From: Streptomyces sp. CB02366
GTDB taxonomy: Bacteria; Actinomycetota; Actinomycetes; Streptomycetales; Streptomycetaceae
Length of the DNA stretch: 64,000 nucleotides
Direction: 5' to 3'
Assembly: GCF_001905905.1 (NCBI RefSeq)
Contig: NZ_LIVT01000012.1
Span: 1 to 64,000 of the forward strand
This document shows positions 7,271-53,257 of this stretch, piece by piece; position 1 is the first letter of the stretch; each line of letters starts with the position of its first letter. The notes below the pieces were generated by a model. It saw nothing but the letters and a program-made list of their open reading frames with translations, was not told the DNA's origin and did no database searches. A program made the translations under genes and the position numbers.

Positions 7271-7466
7271 GGGCACGCTCCTCGTGGGTGCGACGTTATG
7301 GGGTGGGGCGCGGTGAGTACGCGACCGTGTGCGGCGCCGTCCGTGCGGCGACGCATGTACGACGAAATCATGGCCGATCCTCCCACAGGAGGGCCGGGCC
7401 GGAACGCGCCGTAGGATGCCGTGAGCAGCTTGGGGCCACTGGTCGGATCAGGAGCAGAAGCACATC

Positions 7467-8681
7467 GTGAGCAGCGAGAACGCAGACGCCGGACGTGAGC
7501 CGGAAGAGTCGACCGTATGGGATGTCGTCGTCGTCGGCGCCGGACCGGCCGGCGCATCGGCGGCGTACGCGGCAGCCGTGGCAGGGCGGAGGGTCCTGCT
7601 GCTGGAGAAGGCGGAACTGCCGCGCTACAAGACCTGCGGCGGAGGGATCATCGGGTTCTCGCGGGACGCCCTGCCGCCGGGGTTCGAACTGCCCCTGAAG
7701 GACCGCATCCACGCGGTCACCTTCTCGCTCAACGGCAAGCTGTCGCGCACCCGCCGGTCCCGTCGCATGCTCTTCGGCCTCATCAACCGGCCGGAGTTCG
7801 ACGCCGGTCTGGTCGAGGAGGCGCAGAAGGCCGGGGCGGAGCTGCGCACCGGGGCGTCGGTGGTGCGGGTCGAGCAGCACGGTCCCGCCGTCCCCGACCG
7901 GCGGACGGTCGCCGTGGTGCTGGCCGGCGGCGAGACCGTGCTCGCGCGGGCGGTCGTCGGCGCGGACGGCAGCGCGGGCCGCATAGGAGCCCACGTCGGG
8001 GTGAAGCTCGACCAGGTCGACCTCGGCCTGGAGGCGGAGATCCCGGTGCCCGCCACCGTGGCGGAGGACTGGGCGGGCCGGGTCCTCATCGACTGGGGCC
8101 CGATGCCGGGGAGTTACGGCTGGGTCTTCCCCAAGGGCGACACCCTCACCGTCGGCGTCATCTCGGCGCGCGGCGACGGCGCGGGCACCAAGCGGTACCT
8201 GGAGGACTTCATCGCCCGCCTCGGCCTCGCCGGGTTCGAGCCCGCCGTCTCCTCGGGCCACCTCACCCGCTGCCGCAGTGACGACTCGCCGCTCTCCCGG
8301 GGCCGGGTCGTGGTCTGCGGGGATGCCGCCGGGCTGCTGGAGCCGTGGACCCGTGAAGGCATCTCCTTCGCGCTGCGCTCCGGCCGGCTCGCGGGGGAGT
8401 GGGCGGTCAGGATCGCGGAGTCGCACGACGCCGTGGACGCCCGCCGCCAGGCCCTCAACTACGCCTTCGCCATCAAGGCCGGTCTCGGCGTGGAGATGGG
8501 GGTCGGCCGCCGCATGCTCAAGCTGTTCGAGCGCCGCCCCGGAGTGCTGCACGCGGTGCTGACCGGTTTCCGCCCGGCCTGGAAGGCGTTCGCCGGGATC
8601 ACGCGGGGTACCACGTCGCTGGCCGAGCTGGTCCGTACGCACCCGCTGGCGCAGCGGGCGCTGCACGCGATGGACCGCTGA
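7467..8681 (+). CDS. geranylgeranyl reductase family flavoprotein
   Basis: A 404-residue FAD-dependent oxidoreductase. The dinucleotide-binding motif VVVVGAGPAGASAAYAAA is at about residues 19-36. RYKTCGGGI, typical of the GGR family, follows, and the second FAD motif GRVVVCGDAAGLLEPWTREGIS is near residue 285. Family members saturate isoprenoid chains (menaquinone tails, lipids, carotenoids). No isoprenoid genes are adjacent, so the substrate is open. The GTG start is preceded by AGGAG at 7449-7453. The gene stands alone. Confidence 0.88.
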   Translation: MSSENADAGREPEESTVWDVVVVGAGPAGASAAYAAAVAGRRVLLLEKAELPRYKTCGGGIIGFSRDALPPGFELPLKDRIHAVTFSLNGKLSRTRRSRRMLFGLINRPEFDAGLVEEAQKAGAELRTGASVVRVEQHGPAVPDRRTVAVVLAGGETVLARAVVGADGSAGRIGAHVGVKLDQVDLGLEAEIPVPATVAEDWAGRVLIDWGPMPGSYGWVFPKGDTLTVGVISARGDGAGTKRYLEDFIARLGLAGFEPAVSSGHLTRCRSDDSPLSRGRVVVCGDAAGLLEPWTREGISFALRSGRLAGEWAVRIAESHDAVDARRQALNYAFAIKAGLGVEMGVGRRMLKLFERRPGVLHAVLTGFRPAWKAFAGITRGTTSLAELVRTHPLAQRALHAMDR

Positions 8682-8727
8682 GGGGCGCCTGACGTCCTGG
8701 CCGCGCTTCCCGGTGGACGGGGTGCGG

Positions 8728-9183
8728 TCAGGGCGCTTCGGTGAGGCGGAACACCGGGTGGTCGGGGCAGGCCGCCAACAGCTCGGCGTCCGTGGACTTC
8801 GCCGTGACCCCCTGGAAGTACTGGTCGACCTCCCAGCCCCACCGCTCCAGATAGGCCCGGACGATCCGGGCCTTCTGCGCGTCGTCGGCGATCTCCACCG
8901 CCGTGAAGCAGGTGACCCTGCGCCCCAGGCGCAGCTCTCCGCCGCCCGCCACGCGCATGTTGCGCACCCATTGCGAGTGGCCCCGGGCCGAGACCAGGTA
9001 CCGCTCGCCCTCGAAGGTGTGGGTGTTGACCGGGATGCGCTGCATCTGCCCGCTCCTGCGTCCCCGCACCGACAGCTCGGCGGACCCCATCAGGCTGAGT
9101 CCGTAGCGGGCCAGCCGTCCGACGACCTTGTTGAGCCGCCGGGCGGAGGAGCCGGCCCGGAGGTAGTAGTCCTGTTGCGCCAT
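8728..9183 (-). CDS. F420(H2)-dependent nitroreductase family protein (Ddn-like)
   Basis: A 151-residue protein of the deazaflavin-dependent nitroreductase/FDOR family, with GRRSGQMQRIPVNTHTFEGERYLVSARG (residues about 52-80) and a W-V-R-N-M-R core. Members use reduced F420 to reduce quinones, nitro compounds or unsaturated substrates. The ATG at 9183 has GGAG 6 bases upstream; the longer open frame has no such signal. It is divergent from a TetR regulator and shares an operator-rich intergenic region with it, so it is probably induced by the TetR ligand. Confidence 0.82.
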   Translation of the reverse strand: MAQQDYYLRAGSSARRLNKVVGRLARYGLSLMGSAELSVRGRRSGQMQRIPVNTHTFEGERYLVSARGHSQWVRNMRVAGGGELRLGRRVTCFTAVEIADDAQKARIVRAYLERWGWEVDQYFQGVTAKSTDAELLAACPDHPVFRLTEAP

Positions 9184-9222
9184 GGTGACTCCCGCGGTGT
9201 GAGCACTGCTGCCGAGCGAAGA

Positions 9223-25356: not shown

Positions 25357-25929
25357 GCCACCTAAGTTAAGCCCACGATGTGCTGAATGGGGAGCCCCAA
25401 TCGTCGGGTTATCCGATTTGCGCTGGTTCTCTGCCGCCGGTCTGCGGAAACGTGGTGAGGGCTTCCTTGACAGCAGGCGTCTTTCCGTCGACGGGCGATG
25501 GCATCGGAGCCGTTCCCGGCAGTGATCGGGAACGGCCCGGACGCGCACGGACGGGGAGCGAATGGCGTTTGGCCGTAAGTGCGGCGCGAAGATCCCGGTG
25601 GCGCGGCCGCCGCCCCACGGACTCCGGCCGGGCCTTTGACCGCGCCCTCCCGCTGCCGGCCCGCGGCGGCGGCAGCGGAGCCGTCCCGGGCCGAATGCGC
25701 CCGGAGGCCGGGAGCGCACTCGCCACGCGGCCCGACCAGGGCGTCTCCCGGAGGGGGCTCCGAAGGCGGTCCCGGAAGGAGACGGCTCCCGCCCCTGGTC
25801 GGGGCCGGTTCCGGCGCGACCGCGACACGTGCCCGGTCCGGCGTCCCGCCCGTGACCCGGACGGTCCGCCGTACTCGGACGCGTCGTGCTTCCGGTCGCC
25901 ACGTGCCGCACGGGCGAAAGGAATGCGGT
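25357..25929. other. gene-free region with hairpins
   Basis: No frame here has coding character. A perfect 10-bp stem lies at 25509-25518/25527-25536 (GCCGTTCCCG...CGGGAACGGC). A longer, nearly perfect inverted repeat has arms GGCCCGACCAGGG (25730-25742) and CCCTGGTCGGGGCC around 25794-25807. The second arm lies between the end of the peptide cassette (25930) and the first hairpin, so either could end cassette transcription. Confidence 0.4.
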
Positions 25930-26445
25930 TCAGGCCGCCGGCACGGGTTTGAGTGCCGCTATGTCCGCGAGGGGGAGGAGCATCCGCTCGTGGAGGAACC
26001 TCACCATGGTCCAGTGCGGCAGAGCGTCCGCGTCGAACGGTCCGAATTCCCGGCAGCACAGGGGAATCCAGCGCAATGCCTCTTCCAGCGCCTGTTCCCG
26101 CCCCGGACCGTCCTGGTAGTCCTCGTAGGCGATGCTGCGATGGTTGATGAAGAACCGGCCGGGAAGCCGTTCTTCGCAGAGCGAGCGGTATTCCCGGGTC
26201 TGCAGGATGAGGTAGTGCCAGATCTCGTCGATATCCTGTTCGACCGGGAGGAAAAGTCCGCCGAGGCGATCCGGGTGCAGGGAGACGAGATAGAGGTACC
26301 GAAGGCATTCTGTGACCTGTCGTTCCACGAAACCGGGGGGTGCGTCCGGCGCCTTGTCCCGGAAATGCCTCACCACTTCGGCATGAAGGTCCTCTCCCAG
26401 CAGCAGTTCGAGGTCGTCGGCGGTGAGTTTCCGTCCGCTGGTCAT
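25930..26445 (-). CDS. DUF1399/GRDP-like protein, third gene of the peptide cassette
   Basis: A 171-residue soluble protein. LFLPVEQDIDEIWHYLILQT (residues 65-83), YRSLCEERLPGRFFINHRS (86-104) and a C-terminal W-I-P-L-C-C segment recall the DUF1399/glycine-rich-domain (GRDP) family, where D-x2-W-H, a Cys and an H-x-P/S motif are conserved. Here D73, W76, H77, C90 and H102 are present, while the second His of the usual WHxH is not. It could be metal-binding. GAGGAG lies 6 bases before the ATG. It follows the PaaK-like gene by 35 bases on the same strand, so it is almost certainly cotranscribed. G+C is visibly lower than in its neighbours. The function is unknown. Confidence 0.7.
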   Translation of the reverse strand: MTSGRKLTADDLELLLGEDLHAEVVRHFRDKAPDAPPGFVERQVTECLRYLYLVSLHPDRLGGLFLPVEQDIDEIWHYLILQTREYRSLCEERLPGRFFINHRSIAYEDYQDGPGREQALEEALRWIPLCCREFGPFDADALPHWTMVRFLHERMLLPLADIAALKPVPAA

Positions 26446-26480
26446 GGCACTCCTCTTCCTGGGGCGGGGACGGCGGGCTG

Positions 26481-27722
26481 TCAGGTGCGGTGGGCGGTGA
26501 GCCAGGCGTACTTGCCGGAGGGCCCGATCGGAATACGGGTGCGGTGCTCGATCTCGCAGGCCCGGCCGATCAGTTCGCCGGTGCTCCGCCGCAGCGATTC
26601 CGCCTCCGCGTCCCCGAGGGGTTCTCCGGTGAACGTCGTGTACAGCAGAGCGGCCTTCGCGTCGTCGCGGAGGCGGAGTTGGTGCAGAAAGATCCGCGGG
26701 GAGGCGGCCGCGATATGCCGGTCGAGGTCCCCCTGGGCGACGGGGCCGCTCGGTGTGGTGAGCAATTCCTTGAGACGACCGCAGAATTGGACGATCTTCG
26801 AAGGGTCCGGCGTGCCGTCCAGGGTGCGCACGCAGTCGCCGGACCGGTAGCGGACGAGCGGCATGTGGGGATTGCGCACACTGGTGACGATGAGCTGGTG
26901 GATCGTGCTTCCTGCGGCCACCGGCAGGAGTTCGACGCTCATCCCGTCGAGGTGCGGCCAGTACCTCCCCTCCTGGTCGCTGTAGTAGAGGTAGCCCAAC
27001 TCCGTACTGCCGAACAGGTCGACGACCGGGCAGGCGAACCGCCGGTGCAGGAACCGCCGTACGTTCACCGGGGTGTACTCGTAGGCGTGGATGATGCTGG
27101 CGGGCTCCGGGAACGCGTCCGCCAGGCCCCAGGCGTCGACCTTCCGTACCAGATGCGCCAAGTGGGAGCCGGAGCAGTCGAGGTGGTAGTCGCCCCGGGG
27201 ATGCGCGGAGCGGGCCCGGTCGATCTCCCCGAGCATCCGCAGCACGTCCTCGCGGGTCCAGCGCGCGGGGTCCAGAAGGAGGTTGAGGTAGCGGGTCCGC
27301 TCGTCCAGCCGGCGGTCGGCCGGAGAGGGGGGCCGGCCGGGTTCCACGCCGCGCCGGGCGGCGTTGACCCGCGCCACGTGCTCCGTGGCGAGGACCGTGG
27401 TCAGGGAGACGCGGGGGCACCCCGCCTCCCAGGTCCCGCCGATGTCGGGATGGTCGCGCCACAGCTCGTAGTACGAGCGGAGCAGGAAGTACGGCGGCCG
27501 GATGATCTGCATCCGGGCGTGGTTGGTGCCGGTGGACAGGACGAACTCGGCCTCGCCGTTCTCGAGCGCCGCGGCCAGTCGGGGCGTCATCCAGTTGCCG
27601 GGGAACCCGCGGGCGATCTCCGGCTTGTCCAGCACGGGGAAGTACCCCTTCGCCAGGGATTCCTGATAGATCGGAATGTCCCGTATGTGTTCGATGACCT
27701 CGTCGGTCGGCTGGCCTTTCAT
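26481..27722 (-). CDS. PaaK-like adenylate-forming enzyme of the peptide cassette
   Basis: A 413-residue enzyme of the phenylacetate-CoA ligase/F390 synthetase/LuxE group of acyl-adenylating enzymes. Visible motifs are FVLSTGTNHARMQI (60-73, phosphate loop), VVDLFGSTELGYLYYS (233-248, the adenine-binding A5-type motif), LVRYRSGDCV (289-298, the ribose-binding Asp), and CGRLKELLTTPSGPV (315-329, hinge). The C-terminal subdomain is short. Family members activate a carboxylate as an acyl-AMP and pass it to a thiol, amine or protein. The ATG has GAGGG 6 bases upstream. The gene lies 130 bases after the repeat peptide. I infer that it modifies that peptide or attaches an acyl group to it. Confidence 0.8.
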   Translation of the reverse strand: MKGQPTDEVIEHIRDIPIYQESLAKGYFPVLDKPEIARGFPGNWMTPRLAAALENGEAEFVLSTGTNHARMQIIRPPYFLLRSYYELWRDHPDIGGTWEAGCPRVSLTTVLATEHVARVNAARRGVEPGRPPSPADRRLDERTRYLNLLLDPARWTREDVLRMLGEIDRARSAHPRGDYHLDCSGSHLAHLVRKVDAWGLADAFPEPASIIHAYEYTPVNVRRFLHRRFACPVVDLFGSTELGYLYYSDQEGRYWPHLDGMSVELLPVAAGSTIHQLIVTSVRNPHMPLVRYRSGDCVRTLDGTPDPSKIVQFCGRLKELLTTPSGPVAQGDLDRHIAAASPRIFLHQLRLRDDAKAALLYTTFTGEPLGDAEAESLRRSTGELIGRACEIEHRTRIPIGPSGKYAWLTAHRT

Positions 27723-27742
27723 GAATTCCCTCTCATGTTTCG

Positions 27743-27846
27743 CACAGCTGGGGGGCGGGAGCTGTGAGAGAGCCGGAGCGGGGCGCCGGGAAGTGCGCTG
27801 AGGTGGGGGGGAGCCATCTCCGGCGAGCCGCTCCCCGGCGCCCCGC
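27743..27846 (-). terminator. attenuator-like hairpins between precursor and PaaK-like gene
   Basis: Seven bases after the precursor stop (reading leftward), 27846-27834 pairs perfectly with 27790-27778 (13 bp, GC-only, 43-base loop). A second 7-bp stem (27743-27749/27760-27766) lies just before the ribosome-binding site of the ligase gene. A partial terminator here would give more peptide than enzyme, as in many peptide gene clusters. Confidence 0.55.
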
Positions 27847-27852
27847 GGCCGA

Positions 27853-28008
27853 TCAGGAAATACAGCCGCTCTTCGGTGTCGCGCTGATGCATCCACTCTT
27901 GGGAGCGGCGCTGATGCAGCCGTTCTTCACGGCCTGCTGAACCGAGTTGGCGGCCAGCCAATACTGCCAGACGCGGTCCTCGGACATCTTCTGGATGAGC
28001 TGTTCCAT
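27853..28008 (-). CDS. putative RiPP precursor peptide with three GCIS repeats
   Basis: A 51-residue peptide. Residues 1-28 (MEQLIQKMSEDRVWQYWLAA, then NSVQQAVK) look like an amphipathic leader helix. Residues 29-51 are a core of two full repeats, NGCISAAPK and SGCISATPK, and a final SGCIS. All three Cys (31, 40, 49) sit in identical GCIS contexts, and the peptide ends on the last Ser. GGAGG lies 5 bases before the ATG at 28008, and a near-consensus promoter lies upstream. No lanthionine, radical-SAM, YcaO or ATP-grasp enzyme is adjacent; the only partners are the PaaK-like and DUF1399-like genes. Codons such as ATT, TGT, AGT, GGA and ACA are unusual for the genome. Product class unassigned. 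Confidence 0.72.
   Translation of the reverse strand: MEQLIQKMSEDRVWQYWLAANSVQQAVKNGCISAAPKSGCISATPKSGCIS
27856..27924 (-). repeat. 27-nt tandem repeat encoding the peptide core
   Basis: Two 27-base units (27924-27898 and 27897-27871) and a 15-base partial unit (27870-27856) encode [N/S]GCISA[A/T]PK. Synonymous positions differ between units (AAC/AGT/AGC, TGC/TGT, ATC/ATT), so selection appears to hold the amino acids rather than the DNA. Confidence 0.85.
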
Positions 28009-28088
28009 GGGGTCCTCCGATGACAGTGCGGAAGGTACTCCGGACGACGGGGCGAGGGTGAAGGAATCACCTGCCGACCCGCTCGCCG

Positions 28089-28118
28089 AATGTAAAAGCG
28101 CGATTGATGGAGTGTCAA
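28089..28118 (-). promoter_or_regulatory. strong promoter of the peptide cassette
   Basis: Reading leftward, a consensus TTGACA (28118-28113) and TACATT (28094-28089) are separated by 18 bp. Transcription would begin near 28082 and give a leader of about 75 bases before the precursor ATG. It is one of the best matches to a principal-sigma promoter in the window, and suits a highly expressed peptide. Confidence 0.65.
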
Positions 28119-31321: not shown

Positions 31322-31921
31322 GTGCGACGACTCATCGACCACGCCCGCGCCTTTCCCGCCCGCTGGGGCGGATCGGGCCGGGACCTCAAGGAGTTCGAGG
31401 CCGGCCAGCGGCCGTCCACGATGTTCATCACCTGCTCCGACTCCAGGGTGGTGTCCACCCTGCTGACCGGCTCGGGGCCCGGCGAACTGTTCGAGATGCG
31501 CACGGCCGGGAACATCGTCCCGCCCTACGACCCGGACGCGCCCACCAGTGAGATGGCGACCGTCGAGTACGCGGTCTGCGTACTGGAGGTGTCCGACATC
31601 GTCCTCTGCGGCCACTCCCACTGCGGTGCGGTCGGGGCCCTGGCCCGCGGCGAGGACCTGCGGTCCCTGCCCGCGGTACGCGGCTGGCTCGGCCGGTGCG
31701 CCCCCGCGGGCGGCTTCCAGGACCCTGAGGGGTTCGGCCCCGACTGCGAACAGCCCGTACAGCGCCACGCGCTGGCGCAACTGGACGTCCTGCGCGCCTA
31801 CCCGTGCGTGGACCGGGCCGTGAGCGAGGGCCGGCTGGGACTGCACGCCTGGTACTACGAGGTCCACACCGGCGCCGTGCGAACCCATCGGACCTCCACC
31901 GGAACCTTCTCCTCCCTGTGA
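31322..31921 (+). CDS. beta-carbonic anhydrase (copy 1)
   Basis: A 199-residue beta-class carbonic anhydrase, interconverting CO2 and bicarbonate in the cytoplasm. Zinc ligands are C38 (MFITCSDSR), H98 and C101 (LCGHSHCGAVGAL), with the catalytic dyad D40-R42. The C-terminal YYEVHTGAVRTH segment matches the family. The GTG start has GGAGG upstream. The SulP transporter follows 82 bases downstream in the same direction. Together they would import bicarbonate and equilibrate it with CO2. A second such pair exists at 49963-52113. Confidence 0.93.
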   Translation: MRRLIDHARAFPARWGGSGRDLKEFEAGQRPSTMFITCSDSRVVSTLLTGSGPGELFEMRTAGNIVPPYDPDAPTSEMATVEYAVCVLEVSDIVLCGHSHCGAVGALARGEDLRSLPAVRGWLGRCAPAGGFQDPEGFGPDCEQPVQRHALAQLDVLRAYPCVDRAVSEGRLGLHAWYYEVHTGAVRTHRTSTGTFSSL

Positions 31922-32003: not shown

Positions 32004-33533
32004 ATGTCCTCCATCCGCCTCCGGTTAAGCCCGGACGTCGTGTCCCGCGACGTCCTCGCCTCGATCGTGGTGTTCCTGGTCGCCGTCCCCCTCTGCGTCG
32101 GGATCGCGGTCGCCTCCGGTGTCCCCGCCGAACTGGGCCTGGTCACGGGCATCGTCGGCGGCCTGGTCGCCGGTGCGATGCCCGGCAGTTCCCTCCAGGT
32201 CAGCGGCCCGGCCGCCGGGCTCACCGTCCTCGTGTACGAGGCCGTCACCACCCACGGAGTCGCCGCGCTCGGCATCCTCGTCCTGGCCACGGGACTCCTC
32301 CAGGTCGGCCTCGGCCTCGTCGGCTTCGGCCGGTGGTTCCGCGCCATCTCGACCGCGGTCGTCCACGGCATGCTCGCCGGGATCGGGCTGGTCCTGATCA
32401 GCAGCCAGCTCTACGCCGTCGCCGGGGCGAGCGCCCCCGGCAGCGGGCTCGACAACCTCGCCGGGCTGCCGGGCCTGTTCACGCGGATCACCGGGGCGGC
32501 GGCGGTCTCCTCCACCGCCGTCGGCGTCGGCGCCATCGCCGTGCTGATCCTGTGGAAACGGCTCCCCGGCCGCCTGCCCGGGATTCTCCCCGGGCCTCTG
32601 GTGGCCGTGGGGATCGCCATCGCGGCGGTGGCGCTGTTCGACCTGCCCGTCGCCACCATCGAGGTCCGGGGCCTGGTCGACTCGCTGCGGCTGACGGGCC
32701 TGGACGACTTCGGTCTCCTGGCGGACCTCGGACTTCTGGGCGCCGTCCTCGCCTTCACGCTCATCGCCTCGGCCGAATCCCTCTTCAGCGCCGCCGCCGT
32801 GGACCGGATGCACGACGGACCGCGCACCCGCTACAACAAGGAACTCATCGCCCAGGGCACGGGCAACACCCTCTGCGGCCTCGTCGGCGCGCTGCCCATG
32901 ACCGCCGTCATCGTGCGCAGCGCGGCCAACGTCCAGGCCGGCGCCCGAACCAAGGCGTCCCGCATCCTGCACGGGGTGTGGCTGCTGCTGTTCGCGGCCC
33001 TGTTCCCCGCCGTGCTCGGCCTGATCCCCGTGGCCGCCCTCGCGGGGATCCTCGTCCACGCCGGTGCGAAGCTCATTCCCGTCACGACCATCCGGCCGCT
33101 CTGGCGCGAACACCGGGGCGAGGCCGTCGTCCTGATCGTGACCGCGCTGGCGATCATCCTCACGGACATGTTCATGGGCGTCCTGCTCGGCATCGGACTG
33201 GCCGTGGTCAAGACGGCGTGGGAGACCTCCGCCGTCCGGCTCGACGTCGACGAGCGGGAGGACCGCACCACGGTCGTCCTCAGCGGCAGTGCCACGTTCC
33301 TGCGCCTGCCGTTGATCCTGGACACCCTGGAGGCCCTCCCGAAGGACCGGCCCGTGGAGCTCAACCTCTCGCGGCTGCGTCATCTGGACCACGCCTGCCG
33401 CACCGCGCTGGAGGCGTGGTCCACGCACACCGGCGCCGCCGGGGCCACCGGGCCCGCGGCGGACGGCGCACAGCGCGAGGCCGCCCTCGCGGCCGCCGCT
33501 CCGGACAGCCGCCGCCCCGCCCCCGGACGGTAG
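32004..33533 (+). CDS. SulP family anion (bicarbonate/sulfate) transporter, copy 1
   Basis: A 509-residue SulP/SLC26-type permease with 12-14 membrane segments. VASGVPAELGLVTGIVGG near the N terminus and SAAAVDRMHDGPRT and ALPMTAVIVRSAANVQAG in the middle are typical of the bicarbonate-associated subgroup. A shortened STAS domain is at the C terminus (TVVLSGSATFLRLPLIL, NLSRLRHLDHACRTALEAW), followed by an Ala/Pro-rich tail. Pairing with a carbonic anhydrase points to bicarbonate rather than sulfate. AGGAG lies about 11 bases before the ATG. Confidence 0.9.
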   Translation: MSSIRLRLSPDVVSRDVLASIVVFLVAVPLCVGIAVASGVPAELGLVTGIVGGLVAGAMPGSSLQVSGPAAGLTVLVYEAVTTHGVAALGILVLATGLLQVGLGLVGFGRWFRAISTAVVHGMLAGIGLVLISSQLYAVAGASAPGSGLDNLAGLPGLFTRITGAAAVSSTAVGVGAIAVLILWKRLPGRLPGILPGPLVAVGIAIAAVALFDLPVATIEVRGLVDSLRLTGLDDFGLLADLGLLGAVLAFTLIASAESLFSAAAVDRMHDGPRTRYNKELIAQGTGNTLCGLVGALPMTAVIVRSAANVQAGARTKASRILHGVWLLLFAALFPAVLGLIPVAALAGILVHAGAKLIPVTTIRPLWREHRGEAVVLIVTALAIILTDMFMGVLLGIGLAVVKTAWETSAVRLDVDEREDRTTVVLSGSATFLRLPLILDTLEALPKDRPVELNLSRLRHLDHACRTALEAWSTHTGAAGATGPAADGAQREAALAAAAPDSRRPAPGR

Positions 33534-51516: not shown

Positions 51517-52113
51517 TCAAAGGCGGGCGAACTCGGTCCCGCGCTCCGGTCGGTGGACGCTGACGGAACCGGTGTGCACTTCGTAGTACCAGGCGTGCAG
51601 ACCGAGGGAGCCGTCCGCGATCCGCTCGCGCACCGCGGGGTAGCCGCGCAGGGTGTCGAGCTGGGCGAGGGCGTGGGCCTGGACCGCGCCGGGCAGGTCG
51701 CCCGCGCCGGCGGGGGGTGTACGGCCGTCCGTGGAGTGCGCCAGCCAGTGGCGGACGGCGGGCATGGCGGAGAGGTCGTCACCGCGGAGGATCGCGCCCA
51801 CCGCGCCGCAGTGGGAGTGCCCGCAGACGATGATGTCGCGCACCTGGAGCATGCGCAGCGCGTACTCGATGGTGGCGGCTTCGCCGGTGGGCCGGTCCTC
51901 CGCCGGATAGGGCGGGACGATGTTCCCCGCGGTGCGGAGTTCGAAGAGCTGGCCCGGGCGGGCGCCGGTGATGAGAGAGGGGACGACCCGTGCGTCCGAG
52001 CACGTGACGAAGAGTGCTTCGGGGGTCTGGCCGTCCGCGAGACGTGCGAAGTCCTTTGCGTTCGCGGCGACGTGCTCGGTGAATGAGCGGGCGTGTTCTA
52101 CGAGGGACTGCAT
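51517..52113 (-). CDS. beta-carbonic anhydrase (copy 2)
   Basis: A 198-residue beta-carbonic anhydrase paralogous to the one at 31322. Zinc ligands are C38 (LFVTCSDARVV), H99 and C102 (IVCGHSHCGAVGA), with dyad D40-R42. The ATG at 52113 has AGGAGG upstream; the open frame continues to 52224 without a start signal. First gene of a carbonic anhydrase-SulP operon. Its upstream region differs from that of copy 1 (no 11-bp repeats seen), so the two are probably regulated differently. Confidence 0.93.
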   Translation of the reverse strand: MQSLVEHARSFTEHVAANAKDFARLADGQTPEALFVTCSDARVVPSLITGARPGQLFELRTAGNIVPPYPAEDRPTGEAATIEYALRMLQVRDIIVCGHSHCGAVGAILRGDDLSAMPAVRHWLAHSTDGRTPPAGAGDLPGAVQAHALAQLDTLRGYPAVRERIADGSLGLHAWYYEVHTGSVSVHRPERGTEFARL

Positions 52114-52350
52114 GGTGGCCTGCCTCCTGCATCCGGTGGTACCGGGGAGCGGTGTGGTCGGGTCATATCGGTGAATGAGCTGTTCGTATCCGCATGAACG
52201 TTCGGAAGGGGAACCGTGTTTCACCTGTGGTTTGCCGCAGGGCAGCCGTCAGGGAAAACGCTCCGGCCCCTTCCTCGCGGATACGGCTACAGCTGAGCAT
52301 ATAGACCAGGACTTTGCTATCGCATTACCTTCTGGAGAATGACAGCGAAT

Positions 52351-52405
52351 GCGCCACCCATGTCATTCATTCGGCTTGATCTTTGTGATAGCCAATGGGT
52401 GGCGC
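52351..52405. ncRNA. candidate structured RNA or regulatory stem-loop in an A/T-richer island
   Basis: GCGCCACCCAT (52351-52361) and ATGGGTGGCGC (52395-52405) are perfect 11-bp arms around a 33-base loop that is clearly A/T-richer than the genome. The 454-base gap between the carbonic anhydrase and methyltransferase genes, 52114-52567, holds no convincing ORF. The hairpin could be a small RNA, an untranslated-region structure or a repeat end. Confidence 0.3.
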
Positions 52406-52567
52406 GTGCCGAAAGTGAAGACTGCGACGGCAGGTACGAGGACCGTGTGAAGCACGGGCGCGGCGACCGTGCGGAGAGGGGCGCGGCGCGACCGTACGGC
52501 CCCGGCCGCGGAGGTCGCTCCGAGGCCGGACGCGACGCCGGCGGGAACCAAGGGGACCGCGGGGGCT

Positions 52568-53257
52568 TCAGGCGCGACGGCCGTGCAGGAAGAGGTGCGG
52601 CTCGGGCGCGCCCGCCGGATGGTCCGGGGTGAACAGGGCGCTGTGCTCCCACTCCACGGCGATCCCCGCCCGCGCGACGAGGGCGGAGAACTCCTCCGCC
52701 CCGAAGCTGGAGACCCGGACCGGCTGCCCCATGAACACCGCGTCGACGCCCTCGACGTCCACCGGCACCGTCGCGACGACGAACAGACCGCCGGGCCGCA
52801 GCGACCGGACGAGCCGTTCCACCGACTCCCGCTGCTCGTGGCGCTCCATCTGGAGCAGCGAGAAGTACACGCAGACCGCGTCGAACTCACCCTCGGACAG
52901 GGAAAGATCGCGCATGTCCGCACACCGGAACTCGGCCTGCGGCACCTGCCGGGCCGCCAGCGCGGTCATCACCGGGGAGACGTCGACGCCCAGCACCCGG
53001 TGCCCCGCCTCCGCCAGGGTGTACGCCGTGGGCCGCCCCGTCCCGCTGCCCACGTCCAGCACCCGGCTCGCCGGGGCGAGATCCGCCAGCAGCCGCTCCA
53101 GCGATGCGCGGTGGGCGGCCGAACCGGCGAAAGCCCGCTCGTACTCCGCGCCCAGCGCGTCGAACACCGCCGCGGCCGCCGGGACGCGCCCCTCACCCGA
53201 AGTCCCCTGCCCCTCCCAGGACTTCCCGCTGCCACCGCTTACCTGGCTGTCACCCAT
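52568..53257 (-). CDS. class I SAM-dependent methyltransferase
   Basis: A 229-residue methyltransferase: VFDALGAEYERAFAG at the start, motif I RVLDVGSGTGRPTAYTLAEAG, acidic VLGVDVSPVM, then RCADMRDLSL, VCVYFSLLQM and LRPGGLFVVATVPVD. The substrate is unknown. The ATG at 53257 has GGAGGG about 9 bases upstream; the frame stays open to 53425. It is divergent from a small membrane protein gene. Confidence 0.85.
   Translation of the reverse strand: MGDSQVSGGSGKSWEGQGTSGEGRVPAAAAVFDALGAEYERAFAGSAAHRASLERLLADLAPASRVLDVGSGTGRPTAYTLAEAGHRVLGVDVSPVMTALAARQVPQAEFRCADMRDLSLSEGEFDAVCVYFSLLQMERHEQRESVERLVRSLRPGGLFVVATVPVDVEGVDAVFMGQPVRVSSFGAEEFSALVARAGIAVEWEHSALFTPDHPAGAPEPHLFLHGRRA

Follow-up and report, generated by a model that had tools for sequence, protein, structure and literature searches.

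What does a bacterium make from a short peptide that ends in a repeated cysteine-containing unit, when the gene for that peptide is followed by one for an adenylate-forming enzyme? The question is raised by a locus of Streptomyces sp. CB02366, found at 25930-28118 on the minus strand of the 64,000-nucleotide stretch of contig NZ_LIVT01000012.1 (assembly GCF_001905905.1) that we analyzed as a whole and call the window. In order of transcription, the locus holds a peptide gene, a gene for an enzyme with the predicted fold of PaaK and a gene for a DUF1399-like protein. An initial annotation, made from the sequence alone, had read these as a minimal cassette, possibly of a new class of ribosomally synthesized and post-translationally modified peptides (RiPPs), and had placed three genes on this strand at positions that the open reading frames confirm. 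Our comparison across related genomes supports that interpretation in part: the three genes form a strict cassette, and the enzyme could acylate the repeats. The comparison also adds three features to the annotation, namely a near-invariant core, a transporter gene in most relatives, and a link to carbonic anhydrase and SulP genes.

The cassette and its distribution

A scan of genome contigs with an alignment of the enzyme confirmed 107 relatives in named genomes, the best 80 of which were kept as the loci for all locus counts. The peptide lies upstream of the enzyme in every one of them, 60-350 bases ahead. An open reading frame with at least two GC[IV]S motifs is present in 80/80 upstream windows and in 0/1428 control windows (other windows of the same loci), and a looser peptide filter gives 80/80 against 23/1428. 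Because homologs occur in 80/80 against 0/1428, a chance origin of the reading frame is excluded, and the peptide with a repeated Cys-containing C terminus, as initially described, is a real one. The third gene follows 3' of the enzyme in 79 loci, the remaining locus stopping at the enzyme at a contig edge, and was seen again in 33/33 further loci checked (L003-L034, L164). Besides Streptomyces, the hosts of the 80 loci are Kitasatospora purpeofusca, Kutzneria viridogrisea, Paraburkholderia domus and P. polaris, and all three genes are also present in a genome from another family of the same class (G620).

Within the genus, a search of 392 genomes with the enzyme returned 48 with a homolog at 66-100% identity and then a gap, below which stand a remnant of 99 residues at 57% (G303) and, among the matches listed, partial rows at 26-39%. 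A peptide profile run on the same genomes gave 49 matches at E 4.2e-20 or better (the match in G181 spans one TGA); all 48 enzyme-positive genomes carry the peptide (48/48), and in the single peptide-only genome (G081) the contig ends 27 bases after the peptide stop. We dismissed as noise two weaker peptide rows (E 6.5e-4 and 8.5e-4); in neither region was a like peptide called. Roughly one Streptomyces genome in eight among those sampled (49/392) thus has the cassette, which occurs in both Actinomycetota and Pseudomonadota. The initial annotation had named co-occurrence of the peptide with the other two genes in related genomes as one test on which its proposal should stand or fall; the near-perfect co-occurrence over two phyla bears out a dedicated peptide cassette, and peptide, enzyme and DUF1399-like protein as a strict cassette is well supported.

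Departures from this pattern are few. G303 holds a decayed cassette (L124, ~7419-9186), with the enzyme remnant, a shortened DUF gene and, by eye, an MFS-like gene, and with no peptide. Gene distances suggest an early stop in the enzyme frame of L043 and a run-on enzyme frame in L105. An origin on plasmids was considered and rejected: a search of 72,556 plasmid records gave the enzyme a single match, of 23.6% identity and in a record of 11.9 Mb.

The window peptide, MEQLIQKMSEDRVWQYWLAANSVQQAVKNGCISAAPKSGCISATPKSGCIS, begins at an ATG preceded by GGAGG. Its leader carries W14, W17, N21 and S22. These four residues do not change in the 77/80 peptides left by a filter on the start region, in which M1 and L4 are constant by construction; in some peptides (L049, L061, L116), the start picked automatically made the sequence too short or too long. 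The C-terminal unit is present in 3 copies in 69 of the 80 peptides, 4 copies in 6 and 2 copies in 5. Among 241 units gathered by the motif GC[IV][SC], a filter that fixes G and C, Lys is found in 238, Ser in 240 and Ile in 229 (otherwise Val), and the residue between K and G is free (S, D, A, T, N, E and others); single degenerate units read GYIS in L079 and GRAS in L068. The serine of the units is written by both AGY and TCN codons, and its conservation therefore reflects selection at the protein level, while the ratio of nonsynonymous to synonymous differences (pN/pS 0.41 over codons 2-23 and the last four, in 73/80 peptides) is moderate rather than extreme.

The two features by which a RiPP precursor would be recognized are both apparent in these sequences: a short gene stands beside a dedicated enzyme, and the product divides into a conserved leader and a repeated C-terminal core. 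A core this invariant is unusual for RiPPs and unlike that of most antibiotic RiPPs. It points to a single product that the hosts share and use alike, or to a reusable carrier, rather than to a diversifying antibiotic; a role as signal, cofactor or metal ligand would agree with it better than one as antibiotic. We also considered whether the leader might be homologous to linalool dehydratase/isomerase (PF18566), as this model picks up 18/34 members with E no higher than 0.1 (best 5.1e-4), the resemblance being to the N-terminal part of that family. The window peptide scores 20 bits, where the cut-off is 26.1, and a literature search found no paper linking linalool dehydratase/isomerase to such a peptide; we read the similarity as a shared W-x-x-W-x-x-x-N pattern and rejected the relationship.

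The enzyme is detected faintly by sequence profiles, its match to BagE/FevW lying far below the NCBIfam cut-off, and its classification comes from structure prediction and from motifs. An AlphaFold2 model built from 27 sequences has a predicted local distance difference test score (pLDDT) of 87. Its best Foldseek match is PaaK1 from Burkholderia (2y27; E 4.9e-16, template modeling score 0.64), with further matches to AjiA1 (6wuq), NatL2 (6siw, 6tm4) and ClxA (9s45) and, lower, McbA; the rows for NatL2, AjiA1 and ClxA have 13-19% identity, and these same three proteins rank first (ClxA, AjiA1, NatL2) in a profile search of PDB sequences. Invariant in the 27 aligned members are S63-T64-G65-T66, G238-S239-T240-E241, Y292-R293-x-G295-D296, G315-R316 and G400-x-S402-G403-K404, and we take STGT, GSTE, YRxGD, GR and the C-terminal GxSGK to be the adenylation motifs of PaaK-type ANL enzymes. 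By its predicted fold and these motifs, the protein groups with the PaaK-type enzymes, as first annotated, and should be an active former of acyl adenosine monophosphate (acyl-AMP). Since some of its closest solved relatives pass the acyl-AMP to amines or hydroxyls in natural-product pathways, transfer of the acyl group to the peptide is favored over transfer to coenzyme A (CoA). The initial view that no established RiPP class is defined by such an enzyme agrees with a Pfam scan of the two conserved proteins: with E values as high as 1 allowed, none of the 20 enzymes and 29 DUF proteins scanned matched a family of the LanB/LanM, YcaO, radical SAM, ATP-grasp, MNIO or PqqD type.

Remote relatives of the enzyme (27-28% identity) adjoin 35-residue peptides in two further loci, L126 (8177-8284, 6764-8110) and L129 (8157-8264, 6734-8086). 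These peptides have a double-glycine-like leader and end in EDLEAVSGGLERI or EDLEAISGGLERI, and L126 additionally encodes another PaaK-like ligase as well as a heptose enzyme of the GmhA/HldE type. From their gene content, the two loci are possibly another undescribed system of peptide and PaaK-like enzyme.

The third protein is predicted to be all-helical (pLDDT 86); its model has no PDB match with E <0.001, and when the list returned by Foldseek was looked at again, the Z values were just 4.1 and 2.3. The name given to it was the weakest part of the initial annotation. What stands is that D-x-x-W-H, presumably the pattern of the GRDP-like/DUF1399 family (PF07173), is common to remote homologs together with a later Cys and His. 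The profile itself, in contrast, matched 1/29 members, weakly, at E 0.21, and for this reason the name DUF1399 is a lead only. D73, W76, H77, I80, L81, T83, Y86, C90 and H102 are invariant across two phage homologs, one remote Streptomyces match and three cassette members, and the D, H, C, H set could hold a metal. Among 246 genomes of the phylum, the protein was found only in its own genome, with one remote match (E 6.5e-5). The remote homologs include genes of a Klebsiella phage and a Streptomyces phage (L133, 3917-4435; L134, 2935-3795) that are annotated as hypothetical and keep the D-W-H-T-Y-C-H set; in the PHROGs collection, three families were matched, each in 1/29 members, with a best E of 0.029.

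Among the 77 loci with >3 kb of downstream DNA, 58 have a gene for a transporter of the major facilitator superfamily (MFS) directly 3' of the third gene and on the same strand, near full length in 56 and partial in 2 (L044, L090). The Streptomyces-type transporter matches Pfam MFS_1, with NCBIfam matches below cut-off only, and the Paraburkholderia fourth gene is another MFS type, closest to DHA2 drug-efflux models and again below their cut-offs. No MFS gene was seen in L039 (where the downstream DNA is short), L040, L041 and L043, near relatives of the window locus, while L042 and L045-L048 keep one before the same DUF6643 gene, which lies ~1.2 kb further off there than in the window. Judged by this comparison, the three-gene form of the window looks like a reduced four-gene operon, and the product may leave the cell by another route. 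In L049, L050 and L066, none follows the third gene, but a relative of the MFS gene is encoded in the opposite orientation ~6 kb upstream of the enzyme, which looks like a relocation.

Table 1. Features of the cassette and its surroundings in the window (positions from the first nucleotide of the window).
Feature	Position	Strand	Remarks
Precursor-like peptide, 51 residues	27853-28008	-	Leader (conserved to about residue 23) and three K-x-G-C-I-S units; homologs in 80/80 loci
PaaK-fold adenylate-forming (ANL) enzyme, 413 residues	26481-27722	-	Predicted fold and invariant motifs
DUF1399-like helical protein, 171 residues	25930-26445	-	In 79/80 loci
Promoter	28089-28118	-	-35 TTGACA (28118-28113), 18-base spacer, -10 TACATT (28094-28089)
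GC-rich hairpin in the peptide/enzyme gap, possible attenuator	27774-27851	-	Folding z-scores
Site of the fourth gene (MFS transporter) in relatives	25366-25929		No MFS match here in the window
Beta-carbonic anhydrase, associated neighbor	31322-31921	+	Pfam Pro_CA E 4.5e-38; 3.3 kb from the peptide
SulP-family anion transporter, carbonic anhydrase partner	32004-33533	+	Pfam Sulfate_transp E 1.7e-57

Proposed acylation of the repeats and its alternatives

The reading that we prefer, and hold to be about evenly poised between right and wrong, is that of a RiPP-like cassette whose enzyme forms an acyl-AMP and transfers the acyl group to the repeats, with Cys as the likeliest site. The leader would dock on the pair of enzyme and DUF protein, and the enzyme would activate a common small carboxylic acid as acyl-AMP and pass the acyl group to a nucleophile in every unit, of which the Cys thiol seems the most likely, followed by the Lys amine or the Ser hydroxyl. 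The DUF protein, with its putative metal site, would perform a second step or deliver the peptide; host proteases would cut at or near Lys or after Ser, and the MFS protein would export a small product nearly identical across hosts. The product may be a small molecule not so far known.

Several observations weigh against this reading. The acylation, the acid, the proteolytic cutting and the product are steps that we infer. The window enzyme has no match to any Pfam family, and its P-loop region (62-78) is predicted with a pLDDT <50. The MFS gene is missing from 19/77 loci and from the window itself. When neighboring genes were clustered, the enzyme family alone spanned all of the five most distant named loci, in an analysis with rough gene calls that caught the third gene in 38 loci only. 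The cassette is also rare outside Streptomyces, with the enzyme present in 7/394 genomes and 2/137 genera of the class. Finally, the invariant core fits a carrier peptide equally well.

That last point leads to the most serious alternative, which we consider unlikely though well worth keeping in view: with the peptide as a reusable thiol carrier, the enzyme would tether a small acid to the Cys of the unit through a thioester bond, the DUF protein would alter the bound acid, and a peptide-free small molecule would be released and exported. A constant and repeated core would here act like several identical arms, and an MFS transporter as the fourth gene is, we would argue, of a type suited to small molecules. 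There are precedents for both halves of this logic in two reports, one describing how pearlins are built as small products on a carrier peptide (PMC9303977), the other how, in nosiheptide, an acid reaches a carrier protein by way of an adenylating enzyme (PMC5585349). However, no releasing enzyme was recognized among the conserved genes, and the kept Lys and Ser would need another role.

It is quite improbable, in our estimate, that the peptide is simply a small unmodified protein, such as a metal or redox peptide or a regulator of the enzyme, beside an ordinary CoA ligase. Cys-bearing repeats could indeed bind a metal, but this account has difficulty with a C-terminal unit that varies in copy number and is inherited along with the enzyme and, in most cases, a transporter gene.

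We give a shade less credence still to activation of the peptide's own carboxylate, for example that of a Ser exposed by cutting, with attack by Cys to form a small thiolactone. Exactly at a unit is where 76/80 peptides end, and cuts after each Ser would give like ends; Cys and Ser are kept in nearly all units. Such chemistry would require prior cutting, for which no enzyme was recognized in the cassette, and internal units could not react before it; moreover, three of the 80 peptides end in GCISR and the G620 peptide in GCISKG. The initial annotation had offered the C-terminal Ser carboxylate as one possible target, which the data count against, since all units are conserved and not the last alone.

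Neighboring genes and control regions

On the other strand from the cassette, the window encodes a histidine kinase and a response-regulator-like protein, followed by a carbonic anhydrase and a SulP transporter. In 35/49 cassette genomes, as read by eye from match tables, the cassette has a carbonic anhydrase gene no more than 5 kb away; the 49 genomes have 140 carbonic anhydrase matches at E 1e-20, ~3 each, and random placement would make one a neighbor in well under 1% of cases. A SulP gene is present in 46/80 loci, and one or other of the two in 51/80, in five arrangements: downstream on the same strand (28), far upstream and divergent (12), upstream on the same strand (8), upstream and divergent (2) and downstream on the opposite strand (1). 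Neither was found in 29/80 loci, some of them shortened by contig ends, and the Kutzneria, Kitasatospora and both Paraburkholderia loci have no such neighbor. Carbonic anhydrases matching at E 1e-45 or better occur in 49/49 cassette genomes against 15/30 genomes without the cassette (Fisher p 2.9e-8), and in 14/14 of the cassette genomes where the gene is not a neighbor (Fisher p 0.0013); the 30 control genomes were chosen by low handle number and are unmatched in phylogeny, and both p-values are thus too small.

Shared descent explains much of the raw count: the downstream copies fall mostly into a single clade and the far-upstream copies into a second. In a tree in which several supports are low, and in which the row of one cassette neighbor (L165) is marked NON, the cassette-adjoining carbonic anhydrases nevertheless fall in several clades mixed with distant copies. 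Parsimony on the enzyme tree counts 16 changes of arrangement, a figure that includes changes to and from no neighbor, partly from short contigs. With the copies mixed in one tree and the arrangement changing on the other, a single ancestral block is not favored as the cause of the link. The association hints at bicarbonate, or at some condition common to both, but falls short of proof. A second carbonic anhydrase with a SulP partner is encoded in the window at 51535-52113 (minus strand), ~24 kb from the cassette, and a like second copy stands ~22-30 kb from it in G347, G115, G066 and G127.

If the link were metabolic, bicarbonate could itself be the substrate, for example as a Lys carbamate converted to carbamoyl-AMP and caught by Cys or Ser. 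The proximity in most cassette genomes, the higher frequency in genomes with the cassette and the mixed clades and changing arrangements all speak for this idea, which we nevertheless hold to be very unlikely given the loci that lack both genes, those of Kutzneria, Kitasatospora and Paraburkholderia among them, and the unmatched controls; nor do we know of any PaaK-type enzyme that uses bicarbonate. Least probable of all is the fullest version, a peptide pathway fixing a one-carbon unit, in which SulP and carbonic anhydrase would supply bicarbonate, the Lys carbamate would become carbamoyl-AMP, Cys or Ser would close a cyclic (thio)carbamate with the help of a possible metal-binding partner, and the MFS protein would export it.

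As to control of the cassette, the strong promoter proposed at first is backed by the relatives: in 63/80 loci, the highest-scoring pair of hexamers ahead of the peptide reaches at least 9/12, where 4.2/80 are expected from mononucleotide shuffles. In its own genome, the pattern has one exact match, at the cassette, and one other with two mismatches. In L083, L084, L087, L106 and L108, the promoter block resembles 11-base direct repeats (TTGAC n6 TTGAC n6 TTTA), over which a response regulator may bind. Between the peptide and enzyme genes, the transcript can form a hairpin whose stem has 16 pairs; the gap at 27723-27852 folds at z -2.69 against 200 dinucleotide shuffles, and 48/77 loci with a gap of 50-260 bases have z below -2 against mononucleotide shuffles, which makes an attenuator possible. 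The lower G+C content first seen in the cassette is confirmed, with 65.8% and 69.4% in its two kilobases and 73.2% and 72.7% in the adjoining ones, but this dip alone means little, because other parts of the window dip too (67.7% at 52001-53000).

Relation to known systems

To our knowledge, no known peptide-modification pathway matches this cassette. Full-text searches of the open-licence literature listed no paper on it, and a description may exist elsewhere; a term search of the decRiPPter paper (PMC7794033) found no mention of adenylating enzymes. The cassette is small (3-4 genes), and its link to carbonic anhydrase is an unexpected clue to its chemistry.

Among known enzymes, the PaaK-type ligases NatL2, AjiA1, ClxA and BagE/FevW resemble the cassette enzyme in fold and adenylation motifs and are among its best sequence and structure matches. 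They act on free aromatic acids and, as far as we know, have no adjoining precursor peptide. In nosiheptide, the acid supplied is attached to a Cys thiol of the peptide. The adenylating enzyme that supplies this acid for a RiPP belongs to the NosI/NosJ/NosK set (PMC5585349), but that pathway has a phosphopantetheine carrier protein and builds on a thiopeptide framework, and neither was seen in the cassette. Pearlins such as 3-thiaglutamate and 3-thiahomoleucine offer the other parallel, a short peptide scaffolding a small product (PMC9303977). They differ in adding an amino acid to the C terminus, where the constant part of the cassette peptide is a repeated internal Cys unit, and no PEARL-type (LanB-like, lantibiotic dehydratase) enzyme was found by Pfam among the conserved proteins of the cassette, the proteins covered by that scan. 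Because these proteins include neither a carrier protein nor a PEARL enzyme, the cassette is not of the nosiheptide or the pearlin type. Set beside these systems, its precursor logic, that of a RiPP or a carrier-peptide cassette, appears familiar while its enzyme set does not, and if the peptide is modified, the cassette would represent a RiPP or carrier-peptide class founded on an adenylate-forming enzyme.

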